DNA of 64,000 nucleotides from Flavobacterium aquidurense (GTDB taxonomy: Bacteria; Bacteroidota; Bacteroidia; Flavobacteriales; Flavobacteriaceae), in assembly GCA_900107365.1 (NCBI GenBank), contig FNPS01000008.1, positions 124,001 to 188,000 of the forward strand, written 5' to 3'. Both the position numbers and the translations under genes were made by a program. Positions 24,575-41,683 of this stretch are shown in pieces. The notes beneath the pieces were generated by a model. The model was given only the letters and a program-made list of their open reading frames with translations. It ran no database searches and had not been told where the DNA came from. Each line of letters starts with the position of its first letter. The first letter of the stretch is position 1.

Positions 24575-24582
24575 TATATTTG
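24575..24582 (+). promoter_or_regulatory. -7 box of the histidine operon
   Basis: TATATTTG matches TAnnTTTG. A transcript starting about 7 bases downstream would carry the leader peptide start roughly 30 bases from its 5' end, as expected for an attenuator. Confidence 0.65.
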
Positions 24583-24617
24583 CAACCGAATCAAAGAATT
24601 ATAAAATAAACCAAACA

Positions 24618-24677
24618 ATGATTTCAAATCAATTACATCATCATCATTTTCATTATTGCTCTCAAGCGATGTGTTAA
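24618..24677 (+). CDS. hisL: his operon leader peptide
   Basis: A 19-residue frame reads MISNQLHHHHFHYCSQAMC and contains five His codons in six positions (24636-24653). Its only role should be to let a ribosome measure charged tRNA-His. It lies between the promoter box and a terminator hairpin upstream of hisG. The end of the frame (24661-24668) overlaps the antiterminator arm, so the position of the ribosome decides which RNA fold forms. Confidence 0.9.
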   Translation: MISNQLHHHHFHYCSQAMC

Positions 24678-24737
24678 TGGTATGCATGTAAATCATCATA
24701 TTTTAAAACCCGTTTGAGTACATCAAGCGGGTTTTTT
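24661..24737 (+). promoter_or_regulatory. his operon attenuator (terminator/antiterminator switch)
   Basis: The terminator stem is AACCCGTTTGA (24707-24717) with TCAAGCGGGTT (24723-24733), loop GTACA, followed by T's to 24737. The competing arm CTCAAGCG (24661-24668) can pair along its full length with CGTTTGAG (24711-24718), counting one G-U pair, and would break the terminator. TCAAGCG thus occurs twice, once in each competing arm. A ribosome stalled at the His codons leaves 24661-24668 free, so transcription continues. A ribosome reaching the stop covers that arm, so transcription ends. Confidence 0.9.
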
Positions 24738-24785
24738 AATTCCAATTCTTTGTACTCAAACTATTAATCAGCAAACAACTAAAAA

Positions 24786-25643
24786 ATGAGTACTTTAAAA
24801 ATTGCAATTCAAAAATCAGGTCGTTTAAACGAAGACAGCATTCAAATCTTAAAAGATTGCGGTATTTCGATTAATAATGGTAACGACCAGTTAAAAGCCG
24901 AAGCTTCAAATTTTCCTTTAGAAGTTTTATACCTTAGAAATTCAGATATTCCTCAGTATTTGATTGATGGAGTAGTAGATTTAGCTATTGTTGGAGATAA
25001 TTTATTAGTAGAAAAAGGAAAACATATTGAAGTAATTCAGAAACTTGGATTTTCAAAATGTAAGGTTTCCGTAGCTGTTCCTAAAACTTTCGAATACAAT
25101 TCTATTCAGGATCTAGCAGGTTTACGAATTGCAACATCTTATCCAAACACAGTTAACGAATATTTTAATTCTTTCGGATTAACAGTTGATATTCACCAAA
25201 TTTCAGGCTCAGTCGAAATTGCACCAAATATTGGCCTTGCTGATGCTATTGTAGATATCGTCTCAAGTGGAAGCACTTTGTTCAAAAATAATTTAAGAGA
25301 AGTTGAAGTGATTCTTAAAAGTGAAGCTGTTCTGGCGGTTTCTCCAAAAGTTTCTCCGGAAATTCAGAAACACATCGATACTTTAAAATTCAGAATCCAA
25401 TCGGTTTTAAGAGCTCGAAATTCGAAATATATCCTGATGAATGTGCCAAACGATAAAATTGACGAAATTGGTAAAATTCTACCGGTTTTAAGAAGTTTAA
25501 CTGTTTTACCATTAGCTCAGGAAGGCTGGAGCAGTGTTCACTCGGTAATCGATAAAGATACTTTTTGGGACGTAATCGATAAATTAAAAGAGGCTGGAGC
25601 CGAAGGAATTTTAGTTTGCCCGATTGAGAAAATGGTACTGTAA
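24786..25643 (+). CDS. hisG: ATP phosphoribosyltransferase HisG (long form)
   Basis: This 285-residue enzyme makes phosphoribosyl-ATP from ATP and PRPP, the first step of histidine synthesis. The catalytic part includes AIVGDNLLVEKG and the PRPP-binding segment DAIVDIVSSGSTL. The C-terminal regulatory domain (about 215-285, AEGILVCPIEKMVL) marks the long, hexameric form that senses histidine by itself and needs no HisZ. It is the first gene after the attenuator. Confidence 0.97.
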   Translation: MSTLKIAIQKSGRLNEDSIQILKDCGISINNGNDQLKAEASNFPLEVLYLRNSDIPQYLIDGVVDLAIVGDNLLVEKGKHIEVIQKLGFSKCKVSVAVPKTFEYNSIQDLAGLRIATSYPNTVNEYFNSFGLTVDIHQISGSVEIAPNIGLADAIVDIVSSGSTLFKNNLREVEVILKSEAVLAVSPKVSPEIQKHIDTLKFRIQSVLRARNSKYILMNVPNDKIDEIGKILPVLRSLTVLPLAQEGWSSVHSVIDKDTFWDVIDKLKEAGAEGILVCPIEKMVL

Positions 25644-25649
25644 AAATTT

Positions 25650-25766
25650 AAATTCCAATTTTTAAATTCCAAATTCCAAAATTCGACAACAGCTTTGCGA
25701 ACTTTGCGTTTTTTTTAGATAAAGAATAGTAAAAAACCTTGCGCCCTTTGCGGTTAAATTATACAG
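25650..25766. repeat. hisG-hisD spacer with AATTCCAA and TTTGCGAAC motifs
   Basis: The spacer has repeated AATTCCAA units (25651-25680), then CTTTGCGAACTTTGCG (25693-25708) and a degenerate second copy, CCTTGCGCCCTTTGCGG (25738-25754). The same two motif families form inverted repeats at 53682-53806, 56560-56646 and 60556-60655. Here mainly one orientation is present. Confidence 0.6.
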
Positions 25767-25767
25767 C

Positions 25768-27051
25768 ATGAATAAAATAGACAATCCAAAACCAGATACC
25801 TGGTCAGAAATATTAAAAAGACCAACCAAAACCATCGATGATATCGAAGTTACGGTTAAAGAAATTTTTAAAGAAGTACAGAAAAAAGGTGATGAAGCTG
25901 TTGCAAAATACACTTCAATCTTTGACGGAATCACTTTAGAGAATTACGAAGTTACGCCAGCGGAAATTGAGGAGGCAATTAATTCAATTTCTGACGAATT
26001 GAAAAGTTCAATTCAATTGGCGAAAGCAAATATTCTGAAGTTTCACACCGCTCAAAAAACAGATCGAATTTCAGTTGAAACAATTGAAGGAGTAAATTGT
26101 TGGCAGGAAAAAAGACCAATTCAAAAAATTGGTTTATATATTCCGGGTGGAACAGCGCCTTTGTTTTCAACAGTTTTAATGTTGGCGGTTCCGGCTGAAA
26201 TTGCAGGTTGCAAAGAGATTGTTTTATGTTCGCCTCCGGATAAAACAGGAAAAATAAATCCGGCGATTTTGTATACTGCTCATTTATGCGGTGTTACTAA
26301 AATATTAAAAGTGGGGGGGATTCAGGCAATTGCAGGAATGACGTTTGGAACACAATCAATTCCGAAAGTATATAAGATTTTTGGACCAGGAAATCAGTTT
26401 GTAACGGTTGCAAAACAATTAGCAACTCAATTTGGAGTCGCAATCGATATGCCAGCTGGACCTTCAGAACTATTAATTGTAGCTGATGACACAGCAGTTC
26501 CTGCATTTGTCGCTTCAGACTTATTATCTCAGGCAGAACACGGAACAGACAGTCAGGTAATTTTAGTTTCTACTTCAATACGATTGATCGAGGCGGTAGA
26601 AGCAGAAATTCAAAGCCAAATTGAAGAACTTCCCAGAAAAGAAATCGCTAAAAAAGCAATTGAAAATTCGAAATTGATTTATATAGAAAATGATCAGATT
26701 GCTTTAGATCTTATCAATGAATATGGACCGGAACACTTTATAATATGTTCAGAATTTGATGATTTTTATTGTAACGGAATTGTAAATGCAGGTTCGGTTT
26801 TTATTGGAAATTATACACCTGAAAGTGCTGGAGATTATGCTTCAGGAACGAATCATACCTTGCCTACAAATGGTTATGCTAAGAATTATAGCGGAGTAAA
26901 TCTGGATAGTTTTATGAAATCGATGACGTTTCAGAAAATATCTAAAACCGGAATTCAAAATATTGGCCGAGCTATTGAGGTTATGGCTGAAGCCGAAGGT
27001 TTACAGGCGCATAAAAATGCTGTAACGCTGAGATTAAAGAGTATAGAGTAA
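25768..27051 (+). CDS. hisD: Histidinol dehydrogenase HisD
   Basis: This 427-residue zinc enzyme carries out the last two steps, from histidinol to histidine, using two NAD+. Family motifs are the substrate/NAD segment YIPGGTAPLFSTVLM, the GPGNQFVTVAKQ motif, MPAGPSELLIVADD, the zinc-ligand region LSQAEHGTDSQ, and the catalytic YGPEHFII. The length is typical. It follows hisG in the operon. Confidence 0.97.
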   Translation: MNKIDNPKPDTWSEILKRPTKTIDDIEVTVKEIFKEVQKKGDEAVAKYTSIFDGITLENYEVTPAEIEEAINSISDELKSSIQLAKANILKFHTAQKTDRISVETIEGVNCWQEKRPIQKIGLYIPGGTAPLFSTVLMLAVPAEIAGCKEIVLCSPPDKTGKINPAILYTAHLCGVTKILKVGGIQAIAGMTFGTQSIPKVYKIFGPGNQFVTVAKQLATQFGVAIDMPAGPSELLIVADDTAVPAFVASDLLSQAEHGTDSQVILVSTSIRLIEAVEAEIQSQIEELPRKEIAKKAIENSKLIYIENDQIALDLINEYGPEHFIICSEFDDFYCNGIVNAGSVFIGNYTPESAGDYASGTNHTLPTNGYAKNYSGVNLDSFMKSMTFQKISKTGIQNIGRAIEVMAEAEGLQAHKNAVTLRLKSIE

Positions 27052-27059
27052 AGAAAATA

Positions 27060-27133
27060 GAGTCAAGAAGCAAGAAGCAAGAGAAAGAGAGCTAAAAGTA
27101 TAGATTTGAATCTTGCTTCTTGCCTCTTGATTC
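27060..27133. repeat. hisD-hisC spacer inverted repeat of CAAGAAG units
   Basis: The left arm (27060-27082) is built from CAAGAAG units. The right arm (27111-27133) is its complement, built from CTTGCTTCTTGCC and CTCTTG, with about 21 of 23 positions matching. The RNA would fold into a long hairpin between two co-transcribed genes. Confidence 0.7.
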
Positions 27134-27155
27134 TTTCTTCTCAAAACAAAAAGAA

Positions 27156-28202
27156 ATGAAATTCGATATAAATACAATAACACGTGAAAACGTAAAAACC
27201 TTAAAACCATATTCATCAGCACGAGATGAGTTTGAAGATTTTGATACTGCCGAAATGATTTTTTTGGATGCCAATGAAAATCCTTTTCAGAATGGTGTAA
27301 ATCGTTATCCTGATCCGCAACAAAGTTCGGTGAAAGCGATTTTGGCTAAGAATAATAGTGTAAAATCAAGTCAGATTTTGTTAGGAAACGGAAGTGATGA
27401 AGTTTTAGATTTACTTTTCAGGGCTTTTTGTGAGCCAAAAATCGATAATATTATTTCGTTGCCACCAACGTACGGAATGTATAGTGTTTTAGCGAATATT
27501 AATGCAGTTGAAAATAGAGAAGTTTTACTCTCAACAGATTTTCAGCCACAAGTGGAGAAAATTTTAGAAGCTGTTGACCAGAATACTAAAATCATCTTTT
27601 TGTGCTCGCCGAATAATCCAACCGGAAATTCTTTCTCTGACGAAAGTGTGGTGAAATTGCTTCAGAACTTTAAAGGTTTGGTTGTAATTGATGAAGCTTA
27701 TATTGATTTTTCAGGTAAAGAAAGCTGGTTGATCGAAATTGATGAATATCCAAATTTGGTTATTACACAAACACTTTCAAAAGCATATGGTTTAGCTGGA
27801 ATTCGTTTAGGAATTTGTTATGCTTCTGAAGCTGTAATTTCGGTTTTAAATAAAATTAAGCCTCCTTATAATGTAAATGAATTAACGCAGCAAAGAGCAA
27901 TTTTACGTTTGAATGATTCTGATAAAATAAAACAAGAAATAGCTTCAATTATTGAGCAAAGAGAAGAGTTGCTTAAAGTCTTACTTGAAGTAAGTTTTGT
28001 AGAAAAGGTTTATCCTACAGAAGCCAATTTTGTCTTGGTTAAAGTAGATGATGCCAACAAAAGATACGGTGAATTAATTGCAAAAGGAATTGTGATTCGC
28101 AACAGAAATACTCAGCCTTTATGTGAAAACTGCCTTCGTTTTACGATTGGTATTCCAGAAGAAAATGCAGTTTTGATTAAGGAATTGAAGTTATTAAAAT
28201 AG
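27156..28202 (+). CDS. hisC: Histidinol-phosphate aminotransferase HisC
   Basis: This 348-residue PLP enzyme converts imidazole-acetol phosphate to histidinol phosphate. The Schiff-base lysine is Lys209 (TLSKAYGLAGIRLG). Other hallmarks are NPFQNGVNRYPDP, the substrate loop LGNGSDEVLDLLF, CSPNNPTGN, and the C-terminal arginine segment ENCLRFTIGIPEEN. A TTG 36 bases upstream is in frame, but it lies within the repeat arm of the spacer. The ATG at 27156 gives the normal N-terminus. Confidence 0.96.
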   Translation: MKFDINTITRENVKTLKPYSSARDEFEDFDTAEMIFLDANENPFQNGVNRYPDPQQSSVKAILAKNNSVKSSQILLGNGSDEVLDLLFRAFCEPKIDNIISLPPTYGMYSVLANINAVENREVLLSTDFQPQVEKILEAVDQNTKIIFLCSPNNPTGNSFSDESVVKLLQNFKGLVVIDEAYIDFSGKESWLIEIDEYPNLVITQTLSKAYGLAGIRLGICYASEAVISVLNKIKPPYNVNELTQQRAILRLNDSDKIKQEIASIIEQREELLKVLLEVSFVEKVYPTEANFVLVKVDDANKRYGELIAKGIVIRNRNTQPLCENCLRFTIGIPEENAVLIKELKLLK

Positions 28203-28300
28203 AAGAAAGATTATAGAGCAAAGAAGAAAGAAAAAATTGAAAGCGCTTTTTTGGATAGAATTAAAAGTCTATTTTCTTTACTCTTTTTTCTTTATTCTCA
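28203..28300. repeat. hisC-hisB spacer of AAAGAAGAAAG units
   Basis: The left half is a tandem of AGAAGAAAG and GCAAAGAAGAAAG. The right half (about 28269-28300) is rich in the complementary TTTCTTTACTC and TTTCTTTATTC. Together they form an imperfect purine/pyrimidine inverted repeat. Confidence 0.55.
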
Positions 28301-28311
28301 AAAAATAAATT

Positions 28312-29448
28312 ATGAAAAAAGTACTTTTTATCGATCGTGATGGAACGATTGTTTTAGAACCAGAAAATTTACAATTAGATAGCCTGGATAAATTGGAATT
28401 TTATCCGAAAGCTTTTCAATATTTGGCTAAAATTGCTAGTGAATTAGATTACGAATTGGCGATGGTGACCAATCAGGACGGACTTGGAACGGATAGTTTT
28501 CCTGAAGATACGTTTTGGCCAACACACAATTTTATTTTAAAAGCCTTCCAGAATGAAGGAGTTTTGTTTGATGATATTTTTGTGGATCGATCGTTTCCTG
28601 AAGATAATGCACCAACACGTAAGCCAAGAACAGGAATGCTGACGAAATATTTGAATAATCCGGAATATGATTTAGCTAATTCTTTTGTTTTGGGAGATCG
28701 TTTGACAGATGTTGAATTAGCAAAAAATCTTGGGGCAAAAGCAATTTTCATGAATGTGACAGATGGGGCCGGAAGTAATGAAATTTCGTCTAAACGGGAA
28801 CAATTAAACGATTCAATAATTCTTCAGACAACCGATTGGAAACAGATATATGAGTTTTTAAAATTAGAAGCACGTTCGGCTTCTATTACCCGTAAAACCC
28901 ATGAAACAGATATTTTTATTAATGTGAATTTAGATGGAACCGGGAAAAGTAAAATAGATACCGGAATTGCATTTTTTGATCATATGTTAGATCAGATTTC
29001 ACGTCATGGTCAAATGGATCTGGAAATCTTTGTAAAAGGCGATTTAGAAGTAGATGAACACCACACAATTGAAGATACCGCAATTGCTTTAGGCGAAGTT
29101 TTTGCTAAAGCACTCGGAAATAAATTAGGAATTGAACGTTACGGATTCTGTCTTCCAATGGATGATTGTTTAGCGCAGGTGGCGATTGATTTTGGCGGTA
29201 GAAACTGGTTAGTTTGGGAAACTGAATTTAAACGTGAAATGGTAGGTAAAATGCCAACAGAAATGTTTTACCATTTCTTTAAATCGTTCTCTGACGGTGC
29301 CAAAGCGAATATCAACATAAAAGCGGAAGGTACCAACGAGCACCACAAAATTGAAGCGATTTTTAAAGCTTTCGCGAAAGCAATAAAAGTAGCGGTGAAA
29401 AGAGATACAGAAAAAATGATTTTGCCTTCGACGAAAGGAATGTTGTAA
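28312..29448 (+). CDS. hisB: Bifunctional histidinol-phosphatase / imidazoleglycerol-phosphate dehydratase HisB
   Basis: This 378-residue fusion enzyme has an N-terminal HAD-type phosphatase (about residues 1-165) with catalytic FIDRDGTI (Asp8, Asp10), MVTNQDG and [12 protein letters not shown]. The C-terminal IGP dehydratase (about 185-378) has the metal-binding motifs [39 protein letters not shown] and [16 protein letters not shown]. It thus catalyses the sixth and eighth steps of the pathway in one chain, as in enterobacteria. It sits in the middle of the his operon. Confidence 0.97.
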
Positions 29449-29453
29449 TGAAT

Positions 29454-29526
29454 TTTGTTTCAAGTTTCAAGTTTCAGGTTTCACGTTTTGTTGAGTAACT
29501 TGAAACATGAAACCTGAAACAAAACA
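29454..29526. repeat. hisB-hisH spacer hairpin of GTTTCA units
   Basis: TTTGTTTCAAGTTTCAAG (from about 29455) and its continuation pair with AACTTGAAACATGAAACCTG and AAACAAAAC (29497-29526), apart from a few mismatches. The loop is around 29483-29495. It is the same motif family as at 19941-20116, 32473-32521 and 43551-43614. Confidence 0.7.
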
Positions 29527-29538
29527 AACAAAAAGTAA

Positions 29539-30120
29539 ATGAAAATAGTAATTATAAATTACGGAGCAGGAAATATTCAGAGCATTATGTTTGCTATTGA
29601 AAGGCTTGGTTATAAAGCTGTATTGAGTAATGATCCGAACGAAATTCAACAAGCTGATAAAGTGATTTTTCCTGGTGTTGGAGAAGCAAGTTCGGCTATG
29701 AAAAAACTGAAAGAAAGTGGTTTGGATAGTTTGATTCCGAATTTGAAACAACCGGTTTTAGGAATTTGTTTGGGAATGCAATTGATGTGTAAATCATCTG
29801 AAGAAGGCGACACCAAAGGGTTGAGTATTTTTGATGTTGATGTGATTAAGTTCACGCCAAATGTAAAAGTACCGCAAATGGGGTGGAATCAGATCTATAA
29901 TTTAAAATCGGATTTGTTCAAAGGAATTTCCGAAAATGAATTTATGTATTTGGTTCATAGTTTTTATGCACCAGATTGTGCTGAAGCCATTGCCACAACA
30001 AATTATGAGTTAGAATACGCATCGGCATTACAAAAAGATAATTTTTACGGAACACAGTTTCATCCCGAAAAAAGTGGTGCTGTAGGGGAAAAGATACTTG
30101 ATAATTTTTTAAAAATATAA
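29539..30120 (+). CDS. hisH: Imidazole glycerol phosphate synthase glutaminase subunit HisH
   Basis: This 193-residue class I glutamine amidotransferase supplies ammonia to HisF. The nucleophile is Cys77 (LGICLGMQL) and the catalytic His/Glu pair is in GTQFHPEKS near the end. Also present are the N-terminal NYGAGNIQS and the oxyanion-side FPGVGE. HisF is encoded two genes downstream. The length is normal. Confidence 0.97.
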   Translation: MKIVIINYGAGNIQSIMFAIERLGYKAVLSNDPNEIQQADKVIFPGVGEASSAMKKLKESGLDSLIPNLKQPVLGICLGMQLMCKSSEEGDTKGLSIFDVDVIKFTPNVKVPQMGWNQIYNLKSDLFKGISENEFMYLVHSFYAPDCAEAIATTNYELEYASALQKDNFYGTQFHPEKSGAVGEKILDNFLKI

Positions 30121-30172
30121 AGAGAGATTTAAAGACTTTACGACTTTAGACTTTTAAACTTTAAGACTTAAA
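30121..30172. repeat. hisH-hisA spacer of GACTTTA tandem units
   Basis: The spacer is a short tandem array of AAAGACTTTACGACTTTAGA-like units and gives only weak self-complementarity. It differs in motif from the neighbouring spacers. Confidence 0.5.
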
Positions 30173-30174
30173 TA

Positions 30175-30897
30175 ATGAGAATAATACCAGCCATAGATAT
30201 CATTGAAGGAAAATGTGTTCGTTTGTCAAAAGGCGATTACGATACGAAGATAATTTACAATGAGAACCCGCTTGAAGTAGCAAAATCATTTGAAGCGCAC
30301 GGAATCGAATATTTACATTTAGTAGATTTAGACGGTGCAAAATCGAGTAAAATTGTAAATTATAAAATCCTGGAACAAATAGCGACACAAACCAGTTTGC
30401 AAATTGATTTTGGCGGAGGCTTAAAATCGGATGAGGATTTGAAAATTGCTTTTGAAAGTGGTGCAAGTCAGATTACTGGTGGAAGTATTGCTGTAAAAAA
30501 CAAAGCAATTTTCGAAAAATGGATTTCAGAATACGGTTCAGAAAAAATCATTTTAGGTGCTGATGCTAAAGACGAAAAAGTCGCAATTTCGGGTTGGTTA
30601 GAAGATTCAGATGAAGATTTAGTTCCGTTTATTCAGAATTATCAAACTAAAGGAATTCAATACGTTATTTGTACTGATATTGCAAAAGACGGCATGCTGG
30701 AAGGACCTAGTTTTGATTTGTACGGTAAAATTTTGAAAGAAGCGAATGGCATAAAACTAATAGCTTCTGGAGGAATTTCAACTTTTGATGAATTGCCAAA
30801 ATTAGCTCATTTAGGTTGTGAAGGAACGATAATCGGAAAAGCGATTTATGAGGGTAGAATTTCCTTGAAACAACTAGAAAATTTTATAATTAGATAA
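30175..30897 (+). CDS. hisA: ProFAR isomerase HisA
   Basis: This 240-residue (beta/alpha)8 barrel carries out the Amadori rearrangement of ProFAR to PRFAR. Catalytic Asp8 is in [10 protein letters not shown], and the second acid lies in [20 protein letters not shown]. Phosphate-binding loops are DFGGGLKS and [11 protein letters not shown]. It is followed by hisF, its paralogous barrel. Confidence 0.97.
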
Positions 30898-30899
30898 TG

Positions 30900-30971
30900 A
30901 GAAAATTAGTCAATTAGATAATTTTATGCGAAACGTCAAAAATTATCTAATTATCAAATTTTCTAATTGAC
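30900..30971. repeat. hisA-hisF spacer inverted repeat AATTAGATAATTTT
   Basis: AATTAGATAATTTT (30912-30925) and AAAATTATCTAATT (30939-30952) are perfect complements. An outer pair, AAAATTAGTCAATTAGA and AAATTTTCTAATTGAC (to 30971), repeats the same words in shuffled order. The loop is rich in G and C relative to the arms. Confidence 0.7.
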
Positions 30972-30982
30972 ACATTAAAAAA

Positions 30983-31738
30983 ATGTTAGCAAAAAGAATC
31001 ATTCCTTGTTTGGATATAAAAAACGGAAGAACCGTAAAAGGCGTTAACTTTGTTGACTTGCGCGATGCTGGTGATCCTGTAGAATTGGCAGAAATTTATT
31101 CGGCTGAAGGGGCTGATGAATTGGTTTTTCTCGATATTTCGGCTACCGAAGAACGTCGTAAAACTTTGGTCAATATGGTGCGAAGTGTGGCGGAGAAAAT
31201 CAATATTCCGTTTACAGTTGGTGGTGGAATCTCATCTGTTGAAGATGTTGAAATTCTGCTGAATAATGGCGCTGATAAAGTTTCGATTAATTCATCTGCA
31301 GTAAAAAATCCGCAATTAATTAATGACTTAGCTCAGAAATTCGGAAGCCAATGTGTTGTTGTTGCTATCGACGCCAAACAAATTGACGGACAATGGATCG
31401 TGCATTTAGTGGGTGGAAAAGTACCAACAAAATTAAATTTATTCGATTGGGCTGTAGAAGTTGCTGAACGTGGCGCGGGAGAAATTTTATTTACCTCAAT
31501 GGACAATGACGGAACCAAAAATGGTTTTGCAAATGAAGCTTTGGCTAAATTATCAGAACTAATCAATATTCCGATTATTGCTTCGGGAGGTGCGGGAAAT
31601 ATACAGCATTTTGTAGATTCTTTTAAAGTAGGTAAGGCTGACGCTGCTTTGGCAGCAAGTGTTTTTCACTTTAAAGAAATCGAAATTAAGGCTTTGAAAG
31701 AAGAATTGAGGAATAATGATATTGAGGTTAGACTTTAG
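30983..31738 (+). CDS. hisF: Imidazole glycerol phosphate synthase cyclase subunit HisF
   Basis: This 251-residue barrel closes the imidazole ring using ammonia from HisH. It releases IGP for histidine synthesis and AICAR for purine synthesis. Catalytic Asp11 is in [15 protein letters not shown], and the second Asp is in VVAIDAKQ. Phosphate loops are VGGGISS and ASGGAGN. The hisHAF order places both subunits of the synthase in one transcript. Confidence 0.98.
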
Positions 31739-31860
31739 AGAATAGAGTATAGAACAAAGAATATAGAGTTTAGAAGAATATAGAGAATAGAACATAGAAT
31801 AAGGAGTAAAGAGAGAATCTAAAATCTGAATTCTAAAATCTAAAATAATAAATAATCTAA
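31739..31860. repeat. hisF-hisIE spacer of AGAATA and ATCTAAAAT units
   Basis: The first part (31739-31816) repeats variants of AGAATAGAGTATAGAACAAA. The second (31817-31860) repeats AATCTAAAATCTGAATTC-like words. Only direct repeats are seen, so this spacer resembles one unfolded arm of the class. Confidence 0.6.
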
Positions 31861-31866
31861 AATAAA

Positions 31867-32463
31867 ATGAATATAGATATTAAAAGCGCACACGGCTTGA
31901 TTCCAGCCATAATTCAGGATTCAGAAACAAAAAATGTTTTGATGCTGGGATATATGAATGAAGAGTCGCTTCAAAAAACAATAGAAACTCAAAAAGTTAC
32001 TTTTTTTAGCCGTTCTAAGCAAAGACTTTGGACAAAAGGCGAGGAGAGTGGTAACTTTCTAGAACTCGTAGATATTAAAAATGATTGCGATGGCGATACA
32101 CTTTTGATTCAGGCGAAACCAGTTGGACCAACTTGTCATACAGGAGCGGATACTTGCTGGCAGGAATCGAATGCAGCAAATTATGGGTTTATTTCTCATT
32201 TGGAAAATACTATTAAAACCAGAAGAGAAAATGCTGATTCTGAGAAAAGTTATGTTGCTTCTTTATTTGAAAAAGGAATCAATAAAATTGCTCAAAAAGT
32301 TGGTGAAGAAGCCGTGGAAGTGGTTATTGAAGCAAAAGATGACAACGACGATTTATTTCTTAGCGAAAGTGCCGATTTATTGTTTCATTATTTGATTTTA
32401 TTGCAGGCAAAAGGATTTCAATTGAATGATGTTGTTGATGTTTTGAAGAAACGTCAGAAGTAA
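31867..32463 (+). CDS. hisI: Bifunctional phosphoribosyl-AMP cyclohydrolase / PR-ATP pyrophosphatase HisIE
   Basis: This 198-residue fusion catalyses the second and third steps of the pathway. The HisI part (about residues 1-110) has the zinc and magnesium sites KNDCDGDTLL and GPTCHTGADTCW. The HisE part (about 112-198) is helical, with KVGEEAVEVVIEAKD and ESADLLFHYLILL. It is the last gene of the operon. With it the operon encodes every histidine enzyme. Confidence 0.97.
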   Translation: MNIDIKSAHGLIPAIIQDSETKNVLMLGYMNEESLQKTIETQKVTFFSRSKQRLWTKGEESGNFLELVDIKNDCDGDTLLIQAKPVGPTCHTGADTCWQESNAANYGFISHLENTIKTRRENADSEKSYVASLFEKGINKIAQKVGEEAVEVVIEAKDDNDDLFLSESADLLFHYLILLQAKGFQLNDVVDVLKKRQK

Positions 32464-35119: not shown

Positions 35120-35356
35120 TTGCAAGGTGGATTATAAAGAGATGAGACTTTTAAAATTTGCCTAATGGTTGTAAATAAAGGCTTCTTACAAATTTTCAGA
35201 TATTTTCTAATTTTAATTTAAATATTTGTACGAATATTACCATTTTATTATGTAATTTAGATTTTAATAACCTGAAATAAAGCGATTTATGGTTATTAAA
35301 AGCGTCATCCGAAAAGCTAATAGAGTAGGAAACAAACAAAACAAATCAAAACCATT

Positions 35357-39851: not shown

Positions 39852-39926
39852 ATGCAAATCTCAATTATTATTACTTCTGTCGTTGTTGTCAATGTGATTT
39901 TCACATCTGCATCGGGAATGGTATAA
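39852..39926 (+). CDS. ilv operon leader peptide
   Basis: A 24-residue frame reads MQISIIITSVVVVN and continues VIFTSASGMV. It holds five Ile and six Val codons in 24, matching the amino acids made by the operon behind it, and no Leu codon. It lies between a promoter box and a terminator hairpin, as required for ribosome-mediated attenuation. Confidence 0.9.
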   Translation: MQISIIITSVVVVNVIFTSASGMV

Positions 39927-39981
39927 ATATAATTGAAAAACTATATTATAAACCTTCCAAATACTGGAAGGTTTTTTTTTG
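39914..39981 (+). promoter_or_regulatory. ilv operon attenuator
   Basis: The terminator has a perfect 9-bp stem AACCTTCCA (39951-39959) / TGGAAGGTT (39965-39973), loop AATAC, and a T run to 39980. A competing arm lies at the end of the leader frame: GGGAATGGTATA (39914-39925) can pair with UUAUAAACCUUCC (from about 39947), with a bulged U and a mismatch. The Ile/Val codons end about 15-20 bases before this arm, so a stalled ribosome leaves it free, while a ribosome at the stop covers it. The antiterminator is less perfect than in his. Confidence 0.8.
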
Positions 39982-40009
39982 AATAAAAATTAAAATAAAT
40001 TAATACATA

Positions 40010-41683
40010 ATGGAATTAAATAAGTACAGCAAAACCATCACTCAAGATCAAACACAACCTGCGGCGCAAGCGATGTTGTATGGGATTGGTTTAACTGAAG
40101 AAGATTTGAAAAAAGCACAAGTAGGTATTGTGAGCATGGGTTACGATGGTAACACTTGCAACATGCACCTGAACGATTTAGCAAAAGATGTTAAAAAAGG
40201 TGTTTGGGATGCAGATCTGGTCGGACTTATTTTTAATACTATTGGTGTTAGTGACGGAATTTCTAACGGTACTGAAGGAATGCGTTTTTCATTGGTTTCT
40301 CGTGATGTAATTGCAGATTCTATTGAAACTGTTGTGGGAGCACAATGGTATGATGGTGTAATTGCCATTCCTGGTTGTGATAAAAATATGCCTGGTGCAT
40401 TAATTGCAATGGGGAGATTAAACCGCCCATCGATGATGGTGTACGGAGGATCAATTCATTCAGGAAAATGGAAAGGAGAATCTTTAAATATTGTATCTGC
40501 TTTTGAAGCTTTAGGAAAAAAAGTAAAAAACGAAATCACTCCTGAAGATTTTAAAGGAGTAATTCAAAATGCATGTCCTGGTGCTGGTGCTTGTGGCGGA
40601 ATGTATACAGCAAATACAATGTCTTCAGCAATCGAAGCATTAGGTATGAGCTTACCATACAGTTCTTCAAATCCTGCTTTGAGTCAGGAAAAAAGAGACG
40701 AGTGTCTGGCTGCAGGTGAAGCAATCAAAATATTATTAGAAAAAGATATTAAGCCAAGAGATATTATGACTCGCAAAGCTTTCGAAAATGCTATTACAAT
40801 AGTAGCTGTTTTAGGAGGTTCTACAAATGCAGTTATGCACTTAATTGCCATGGCACACGCTGTTGATATTAAGATTACTTTGGATGATTTTCAGGCAATT
40901 AATGACAGAACACCAGTATTGGCTGATATGAAGCCAAGTGGTAAATATATGATGGAAGATATTCATGAAGCGGGAGGAATTCCTTCAGTAATGAAATATT
41001 TATTAAAAGTAGGATTGATTCACGGAGATTGTTTAACGGTAACCGGAAAAACAGTAGCTGAGAATTTAGCATCTACTCCGGATTTACAAGATGGACAACA
41101 AGTAATTCATGAAATTCAAAAAGCATTAAAACCAACTGGAAATATTCAGGTTTTATACGGAAATCTTGCTTCTGAAGGTGCTGTTGCAAAAATCAGCGGA
41201 AAAGAAGGAGAATATTTTGAAGGACCAGCTGTTGTATTTGAAGGTGAATTTGAAGTGATTCCTGGTCTTGAGGCCGGAAAAATAAAACCAGGCAATGTAG
41301 TCGTCATCAGGTATTGTGGACCAAAAGGTGGTCCGGGGATGCCTGAAATGCTAAAACCTACATCAGCTATTATTGGTGCTGGATTAGGAAGTACTTGTGC
41401 TCTTATCACAGACGGCAGATTCTCTGGAGGTTCACATGGCTTTGTCGTAGGACATATTACACCAGAGGCTTATGATGGTGGTGGTATTGCACTTGTAAAA
41501 GATGGTGATTTAATTGCTATCGATGCAGTAAAAAATACAATCGACCTGAAAATTTCCGACGAAGAATTTGCGGCTAGAAAAGCGGCTTGGGTTCAACCAC
41601 CGTTAAAAGTTACAAAAGGAGTTTTGCTAAAATACGCCAGATCGGTTTCAAGCGCTTCTACAGGTTGCGTTACCGATAACTAA
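40010..41683 (+). CDS. ilvD: Dihydroxy-acid dehydratase IlvD
   Basis: This 557-residue iron-sulfur enzyme dehydrates the dihydroxy acids of the isoleucine and valine pathways. The cluster ligands and signatures are visible in [38 protein letters not shown] and the C-terminal [20 protein letters not shown]. The length is normal. It is the first structural gene after the attenuator. Confidence 0.97.

Follow-up and report, generated by a model that had tools for sequence, protein, structure and literature searches.

A predicted histidine attenuator upstream of hisG in Flavobacteriales with a conserved fifth arm

Histidine operon leaders with alternative structures are represented by the gammaproteobacterial family His_leader (RF00514). 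An abstract by Vitreschak from 2004 is said to name Bacteroidetes/Chlorobi. In 2010, as worded in the accessible part of one paper, its authors knew of no leader-peptide system outside Proteobacteria and Actinobacteria (PMC2965389). For Flavobacterium psychrophilum, the available text of PMC9723704 reports strong clues for leader-peptide attenuation 5' of amino-acid operons, leaving the operons unspecified, and separately describes, in front of hisG, a structured 5' element without an Rfam match whose conservation extends to other genera of the Flavobacteriaceae. A further relevant system is the vmlR leader of Bacillus subtilis, in which transcription attenuation by a stalled ribosome is combined with a downstream hairpin over the initiation region of the gene; this hairpin is proposed, in the portion of the article available, to silence non-terminated transcripts and to be relieved by an alternative pairing (PMC9226507). 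Initiation in F. johnsoniae is reported, in the accessible text, as tuned by mRNA structure (PMC6847099).

The locus described here lies within a 64,000-nucleotide stretch of Flavobacterium aquidurense DNA (GCA_900107365.1, contig FNPS01000008.1, positions 124,001 to 188,000), which we call the window and which belongs to a genome of 5.44 Mb. It contains a histidine operon that starts with hisG (ATG at 24786; 191.5 bits against the NCBIfam hisG cut-off of 75.75) and continues with hisD, hisC, hisB, hisH, hisA, hisF and hisIE. The original prediction had read a complete histidine attenuator in front of it, and the promoter box, the five-His leader, the competing arm and the terminator were each located at the positions it gave (Table 1). 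For the stretch 24575-24800 the predicted structure has -48.5 kcal/mol (z -6.07), a value equalled by none of 200 shuffles. Judging from the promoter box, a transcript would be expected to start near 24588 and, if terminated, to end near 24737.

Table 1. Features of the hisG leader region (positions in the window)
Feature	Positions	Strand	Basis
Promoter -7 box TATATTTG (TAnnTTTG)	24575..24582	+	read from sequence
Leader ORF MISNQLHHHHFHYCSQAMC*, 19 codons, five His, no Shine-Dalgarno	24618..24677 (ATG to TAA)	+	sequence reading
1:2 hairpin, predicted to hide arm 2; would form without a ribosome on the leader	24633..24691	+	folding
Antiterminator strand (arm 2), CTCAAGCG, lying in leader codons 15-17	24661..24668	+	sequence, folding, arm swaps
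Arm 3, 5' side of the terminator (AAAACCCGTTTGA, 24705-24717) plus its loop GTACA (24718-24722)	24705..24722	+	folding
Arm 4, 3' side of the terminator with its T-run (TTTTTT, 24732-24737)	24723..24737	+	folding
Arm 5 TGTACTCAAAC	24751..24761	+	complement of arm 3 24712-24722 (11 pairs); locus reading, swaps, folding
Arm 6, ATG of hisG with codons 2-3 (ATGAGTAC)	24786..24793	+	locus reading, swaps
his operon (putative single transcript) hisG-D-C-B-H-A-F-IE	24786..32463	+	profile matches of eight genes

Ribosome-mediated amino-acid attenuators are recognised by a short leader ORF with cognate codons, a terminator between leader and first gene, and an antiterminator strand that overlaps the leader and competes for the terminator 5' arm, and all three are found here. 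The five His codons of the leader are all CAT and fall within 24636-24653. Arm 2 (CTCAAGCG) occupies the last leader codons and is the complement of CGTTTGAG in arm 3, the strand common to the 2:3, 3:4 and 3:5 pairings. The terminator hairpin (24705-24737) folds by itself at -17.5 kcal/mol (z -6.94; 0 of 200 shuffles as good); it had been called perfect and is actually made of 13 pairs, one of them U-G, followed by six T's, and it is the TCAAACGGG of 13 aligned relatives that makes theirs perfect. An automatic terminator scan of the window did not flag this hairpin. The repeated word TCAAGCG, to which attention had been drawn, is indeed present in the competing arms, but the word itself is ordinary (8 occurrences in the window against 4.7 expected) and is absent from arm 4 of the 13 aligned relatives; what is conserved is the pairing. 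A feature absent from the original prediction is the 1:2 hairpin (24633-24691), which alone reaches -17.8 kcal/mol (z -4.24). By analogy, the window leader would work like the enteric his attenuator. With ample charged His-tRNA the ribosome would reach the leader stop and cover arm 2, 3:4 would form and transcription would stop at the T-run. With His-tRNA scarce, a ribosome stalled at the His codons would block 1:2, 2:3 would form and RNA polymerase would enter hisG.

The recurrence of these parts was examined in 310 hisG loci (genus 66+10+80, family 74, order 26, class 34, phylum 20), drawn from 76 of the 82 genus matches, the best 80 of 343 relatives (by title, 77 Flavobacterium, 2 Flavobacteriaceae bacterium and 1 [Flexibacter] sp.), 74 of 212 family and 60 of 332 phylum loci among the matches listed, and 20 of 91 from the order. 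Some genomes appear twice, the 156 genus loci representing 144 distinct 250-base upstream stretches, and distant HisG (e.g. the large f18 group) lie outside, so that all counts are those of the sample and imply nothing phylum-wide. Within the genus, 39 of 121 genomes gave no hisG match and 15 of the 82 matches were just 50-57% identical to the query, as if the genus held two HisG lineages; the 10 of these 15 divergent loci that were examined all had a leader.

A leader ORF was scored as His-rich when 8 of its residues included at least 3 His. By this criterion, 299 of the 310 loci have one before hisG, versus 10 of 310 on the reverse strand. By set, leaders were found in 66/66, 79/80 and 10/10 Flavobacterium loci (the last being the set with HisG ~53% identical) and in 72/74 (family), 25/26 (order), 33/34 (class) and 14/20 (phylum) of the wider groups; the ORF scored may be the wrong one in some loci (L297, probably another ORF), and one of the eleven leader-less loci has just 40 bases upstream. 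When the same search was applied to other residues (first 270 loci, ATG starts only), His gave 254 loci and the runner-up, Lys, 70. A chance origin of the leader is ruled out by these reverse-strand and residue controls. At most 90 nt 5' of the leader, the TAnnTTTG box appears in 207 of 246 Flavobacteriales loci versus 8 of 246 on the reverse strand, and Shine-Dalgarno-like words in front of the leader in none of the 246. A hisG of the same order in a reduced genome of 0.6 Mb (L290) has, by eye, a hairpin with T's and no His leader, possibly an attenuator minus its sensor.

By the rule of our script, a terminator follows the leader in 272 of the 299 loci, both parts being present in 19 of 34 class and 11 of 20 phylum loci. 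The paired-arm tests leave out 36 of the 310 loci (1 without an ORF, 7 with fewer than 2 His and 28 without a rule-based terminator); among these 28 some show a terminator by eye (L147, L154, L155), and some terminators elsewhere were called with shortened stems. Two loci whose kinship is only the same phylum (L251, L259) were placed in the Flavobacteriales set because their leaders resemble it; the first of them has arm 5 and ATGAGT, and was thus kept out of the control outside this order. Since arm 2 coincides with their last codons, most of the Flavobacteriaceae leaders that were read end in Q-A-R, Q-A-S or Q-A-M. Own 2:3 pairing was better than that of swapped arms in the Flavobacteriales (reached by 0 of 2000 permutations; 60 different arm 3 sequences), in all loci together (0/2000, N=89) and outside the Flavobacteriales (0/2000, N=28), where leader end and terminator differ in sequence yet match each other; single loci outside this order were significant at p 0.05 in 12 of 19 cases for the class and 5 of 11 for the phylum. 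The recurrence of the parts in the relatives makes the attenuator real and widespread in the sample. With leader, competing arms, terminator, promoter box and his operon all in place, the reading as a histidine attenuator stands, and the region is almost certainly a ribosome-mediated one, the response to histidine being what we infer from it.

The earlier reading was incomplete, not wrong, because the Flavobacteriales have a conserved fifth arm beyond it. This arm starts 13 bases past the T-run and had gone unremarked. In Flavobacterium it appears as a constant element after the T-run (TTTGTACTCAAAC), the complement of the upper half of arm 3 and of the terminator loop. In 60 Flavobacteriales loci that were unselected for pairing, 3:5 reaches -13.9 kcal/mol with the own arms and -9.7 with permuted ones (0/2000), and when a single locus was kept for each of the 29 loop 5-mers, none of 20 draws was reached by its 2000 permutations. 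Outside the Flavobacteriales set there is no 3:5 signal (1212 of 2000 permutations as good, N=26), and arm 5 as a general trait of the sampled his leaders is rejected.

The changes in both arms are those of a pairing. Co-varying pairs in the relatives include GTTTGAGACAA with TTGTTTCAAAC, GTCTGAGTATA with TATACTCAGAT, and ATCTGAATAAT with ATTGTTCAGAT; in the last of these (L168) the terminator stem has changed too, so that all three arms agree. The 83 distinct combinations, which were chosen for significant 3:5, contain 763 Watson-Crick pairs, 94 G-U, 4 A-C and 41 others. On a HisG tree with 46 tips of significant 3:5, about 22 double changes keep the pairing and 0.8 break it, while single changes keep it 49 times and break it about 20 times in arm 5 (7 and 2.6 in arm 3); at one base, four independent contrasts on supported branches gave 3.9 in the same direction. 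This tree, made by a quick method, holds 52 of the 60 loci (8 were lost to the motif search), carries a long-branch warning and is rooted for drawing only. Since tree tips, register and pair-type combinations were all pre-chosen for pairing, the swap test and the 29-loop test are the unbiased ones. The co-variation, together with the excess of G-U over A-C, indicates that arm 5 acts as RNA, and 3:5 is, judging from the sequences, very probably a selected RNA pairing.

The distribution of arm 5 is uneven. With shuffling of the stretch (245 of the 248 deduplicated loci computed), it was significant at p<=0.01 in 65/66, 54/54 and 5/5 loci of the Flavobacterium sets, in 33/73 of the family and 18/19 of the order (one of the latter, L280, with Ser2 TCA and a different kind of terminator, is probably a false positive), and in 0/17 of the class and 1/11 of the phylum. 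Nine family loci (L161, L176, L185, L191, L196, L197, L200, L203, L209) have just 22-35 bases from hairpin to hisG. Their 3:5 pairing is slight (z -2.2 to 0.4), which looks like the loss of arm 5 through a deletion. Another complementarity, between CAAAGAATT at the presumed 5' end (24592-24600) and AATTCTTTG just 5' of arm 5 (24744-24752), was also better with own than with swapped strands when the 5' UTR was compared with the stretch past the terminator (0/500), and was set aside as too redundant to use, its 150 loci including many close relatives.

Other leaders were seen in the same genome. In the window, the region before ilvD (ATG at 40010) encodes an Ile/Val leader peptide (MQISIIITSVVVVNVIFTSASGMV, 39852-39926) and contains a hairpin with a U tail, likely a second attenuator; its stretch 39852-40010 has no Rfam match at gathering, and the sole gathering match within the window is a DUF805b RNA (RF02914) at 35299-35331. 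Elsewhere, a Phe-rich leader (MASNRFYFSNSFYFFFSRSKDCAMVI; L311, ~1342-1488) with a hairpin and T-run ends right before pheA, and a Bacteroid-trp leader (RF01692, 72.6 bits; L312, 1263-1387) with the leader peptide MNNTWWWKNLRQTS lies before trpE. No arm 5 was found behind the pheA, trpE and ilvD attenuators, the pheA test covering only 7 bases, and arm 5 as a general trait of the attenuators of this genome is likewise rejected.

Arm 5 has a second complement, also missing from the original prediction, in that its bases 24752-24758 match the hisG start (24787-24793) over 7 pairs. The hairpin 24751-24800 alone folds at -6.2 kcal/mol (z -2.51), a value matched by 5 of 200 shuffles, and this 5:6 pairing competes with 3:5 for the bases of arm 5. 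The complementarity is present in Flavobacterium, in most sampled loci of the other families of the order and in part of the Flavobacteriaceae. A F. johnsoniae locus (L050) shares its leader peptide, arm 5 and hisG start with the window. Among the loci where hisG begins with ATGAGT, arm 5 mostly matches the start too: ATGAGTAC goes with GTACTCA (MST), ATGAGTAAA with TTTACTCA (MSK) and ATGAGTAT with ATACTCA (MSI), the exceptions being ATGAGT loci with the loop GAGACAA, where arm 5 and start pair poorly. Own 5:6 pairing averages -8.93 against -7.69 for swapped partners (0/2000, N=37), in 51 of 57 ATGAGT loci arm 5 has its best downstream target beginning between -1 and +2 relative to the ATG, and the mispairs are 16 G-U, 3 A-C and 9 others. 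The second codon of hisG points the same way, Ser2 being AGT in 65 of 67 distinct arm-5 loci versus 5 of 8 loci that lack the arm (Fisher p 0.007, kinship ignored), while in the window AGT makes up 234 of the 1051 Ser codons in mechanical ORFs of at least 200 aa. On the other side, AGT is used by 3 of the 6 Met-Ser ORFs in the window, and ATGAGT may be a common start.

These observations suggest a mechanism in two tiers. In the Flavobacteriales, arm 5 would compete for arm 3, 3:5 and 3:4 being mutually exclusive, and in most sampled ATGAGT lineages it could alternatively close over the hisG start. In a transcript that leaks past a formed terminator, arm 3 would be occupied and arm 5 would shut the hisG start; where the terminator never formed, arm 3 would hold arm 5 and leave the start open. 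That arm 5 is such a translational lock on leaky transcripts seems to us somewhat more probable than its contrary, with direction and kinetics deduced from the model.

Folding gave mixed answers on the direction of the lock. In 95 ATGAGT loci with arm 5, the hisG start was 18-19% open with arm 4 free and 33-40% open with arm 4 masked, 3:5 then rising to 0.59-0.88 (p34 is understated by definition in this folding and was left unused); a start closed with arm 4 free and opened with arm 4 out fits a lock on leaky transcripts. In 27 arm-5 loci without ATGAGT, masking arm 4 brought no comparable shift in the openness of the start. In the window, 3:4 beats both 3:5 and 2:3 for all ribosome states that were modelled, except when arm 4 is masked, and the open state must therefore be kinetically trapped. 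When arm 4 was masked and the ribosome stalled, the window gave 2:3 at 0.94 and 5:6 closed at 0.92, the opposite of what the lock needs during a stall, and the 95 loci gave 3:5 at 0.59 and 5:6 at 0.36. It is because arm 4 has to be masked, and because the stalled state of the window is closed, that we infer the direction of the lock and go no further.

The alternative that survives best is that arm 5 acts by 3:5 alone, unfolding the terminator hairpin in read-through mRNA, with mRNA stability, processing or ribosome passage as suggested purposes and the match to the hisG start as a by-product. In 20 of the 33 arm-5 loci of the family hisG lacks a Met-Ser start and 3:5 is retained; this persistence of 3:5 where the start is unpaired means that 5:6 cannot be the sole job of arm 5. 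Swapped hisG starts are almost as good in the arm-5 loci of the family (31/1000, in stretches pre-chosen for pairing), and a search for other targets of arm 5 in hisG without ATGAGT returned a weak signal only (80/2000). On the tree, 5:6 has three independent contrasts at the informative base (1.6 in the same direction, 0.4 opposite, 1.1 without difference); with so few, the start-codon tier rests mainly on conservation, and 5:6 is less firmly supported than the co-variation of 2:3 and 3:5. A by-product would not explain why the start codon is the best downstream target in nearly all ATGAGT loci, with own starts better than swapped ones, nor the skew of Ser2 towards AGT, and we regard 3:5 alone as possible, if on the unlikely side.

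A plain four-arm histidine attenuator, in which arm 5 is an idle relic or chance, is improbable. Four arms would by themselves account for the control of the operon, at equilibrium the terminator is stronger than either 3:5 or 5:6, and 40 of 73 family loci are without significant arm 5. A relic, however, would not track the terminator loop, and 3:5 co-varies: own pairing was reached by no permutation (0/2000), some 22 double changes keep the pair, and G-U outnumbers A-C by 94 to 4. Repression in trans, with the loop of the terminated leader RNA pairing to arm 5 of the his mRNA, is very unlikely. Leader RNA, once released, would include the loop and the upper stem of the terminator, to which arm 5 is complementary, but the loop is a poor seed (5 nt in the window and, by eye, GCAA or GAAA in some loci of the family) and proximity favours pairing in cis. 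An attenuator-derived RNA, rnTrpL, reportedly acts in trans in Sinorhizobium. Finally, although GTTTGAGTACA and TGTACTCAAAC form a perfect inverted repeat in the window, arms 3 and 5 are extremely unlikely to be a DNA operator for a his operon repressor, which would treat G-U (94 kept) and A-C (4) alike.

As an explanation of the whole region we consider probable a ribosome-mediated attenuator for histidine that carries an additional arm, the fifth, and a translational layer. That a single strand, the terminator 5' arm, governs both transcription and translation of hisG, keeping leaked transcripts silent, and does so as an old trait of the Flavobacteriales, is for us evenly balanced. The start-codon tier is found on both sides of the midpoint root and may thus be old in the order, and it looks as if it had been lost in part of the family with 3:5 kept. 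If the leaders are attenuators, close coupling of ribosome and RNA polymerase would be required in bacteria that initiate without Shine-Dalgarno pairing; if the whole proposal is true, such bacteria would have a two-tier attenuator whose start-codon tier was lost in part of the family. The fifth arm predicts that transcriptional and translational control should be separable by point changes in its 11 bases and by one synonymous codon change.

How does this leader compare with known systems? With RF00514 it shares a histidine operon leader with alternative structures, and its stretch scores 32.7 bits (E 0.00093), the top bit score among the matches listed; since the gathering score of 49 is not reached, it is kept out of that family, from which it also differs in having no Shine-Dalgarno and in its extra arm 5 with start-codon complementarity. 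The Bacteroid-trp leader of the same genome is likewise a leader-peptide attenuator of Bacteroidota, but with Trp codons and no arm-5-like pairing past the terminator (252 of 500 shuffles as good). Nearest in print, as far as the available text goes, is the F. psychrophilum element, upstream of the same gene in the same family (PMC9723704), which is described in the accessible main text without leader sequence, arms or start-codon pairing. The consulted parts of PMC9723704, PMC7366714, PMC4833913 and PMC2864571, and of PMC2965389, PMC6847099 and PMC9226507, report neither a fifth arm nor pairing with the start codon for any his leader of Bacteroidota. For the two-tier logic the precedent, judging from the text available, is vmlR, where the signal is an antibiotic, the hairpin sequesters a Shine-Dalgarno and the host is a Bacillus (PMC9226507). 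Like vmlR, the his leader has a predicted hairpin over the downstream initiation site (5:6, recurring in ATGAGT loci) and an alternative pairing that excludes it, 3:5 using the same bases of arm 5; unlike vmlR, it serves an amino-acid operon without Shine-Dalgarno, the predicted hairpin pairs the start codon itself, and relief would come from the 5' arm of the terminator. The novelty that the original prediction implied is therefore to be relocated, since the F. psychrophilum element makes the attenuator part known in kind: this is a known kind of attenuator, and the arm 5 of the Flavobacteriales is what is new.
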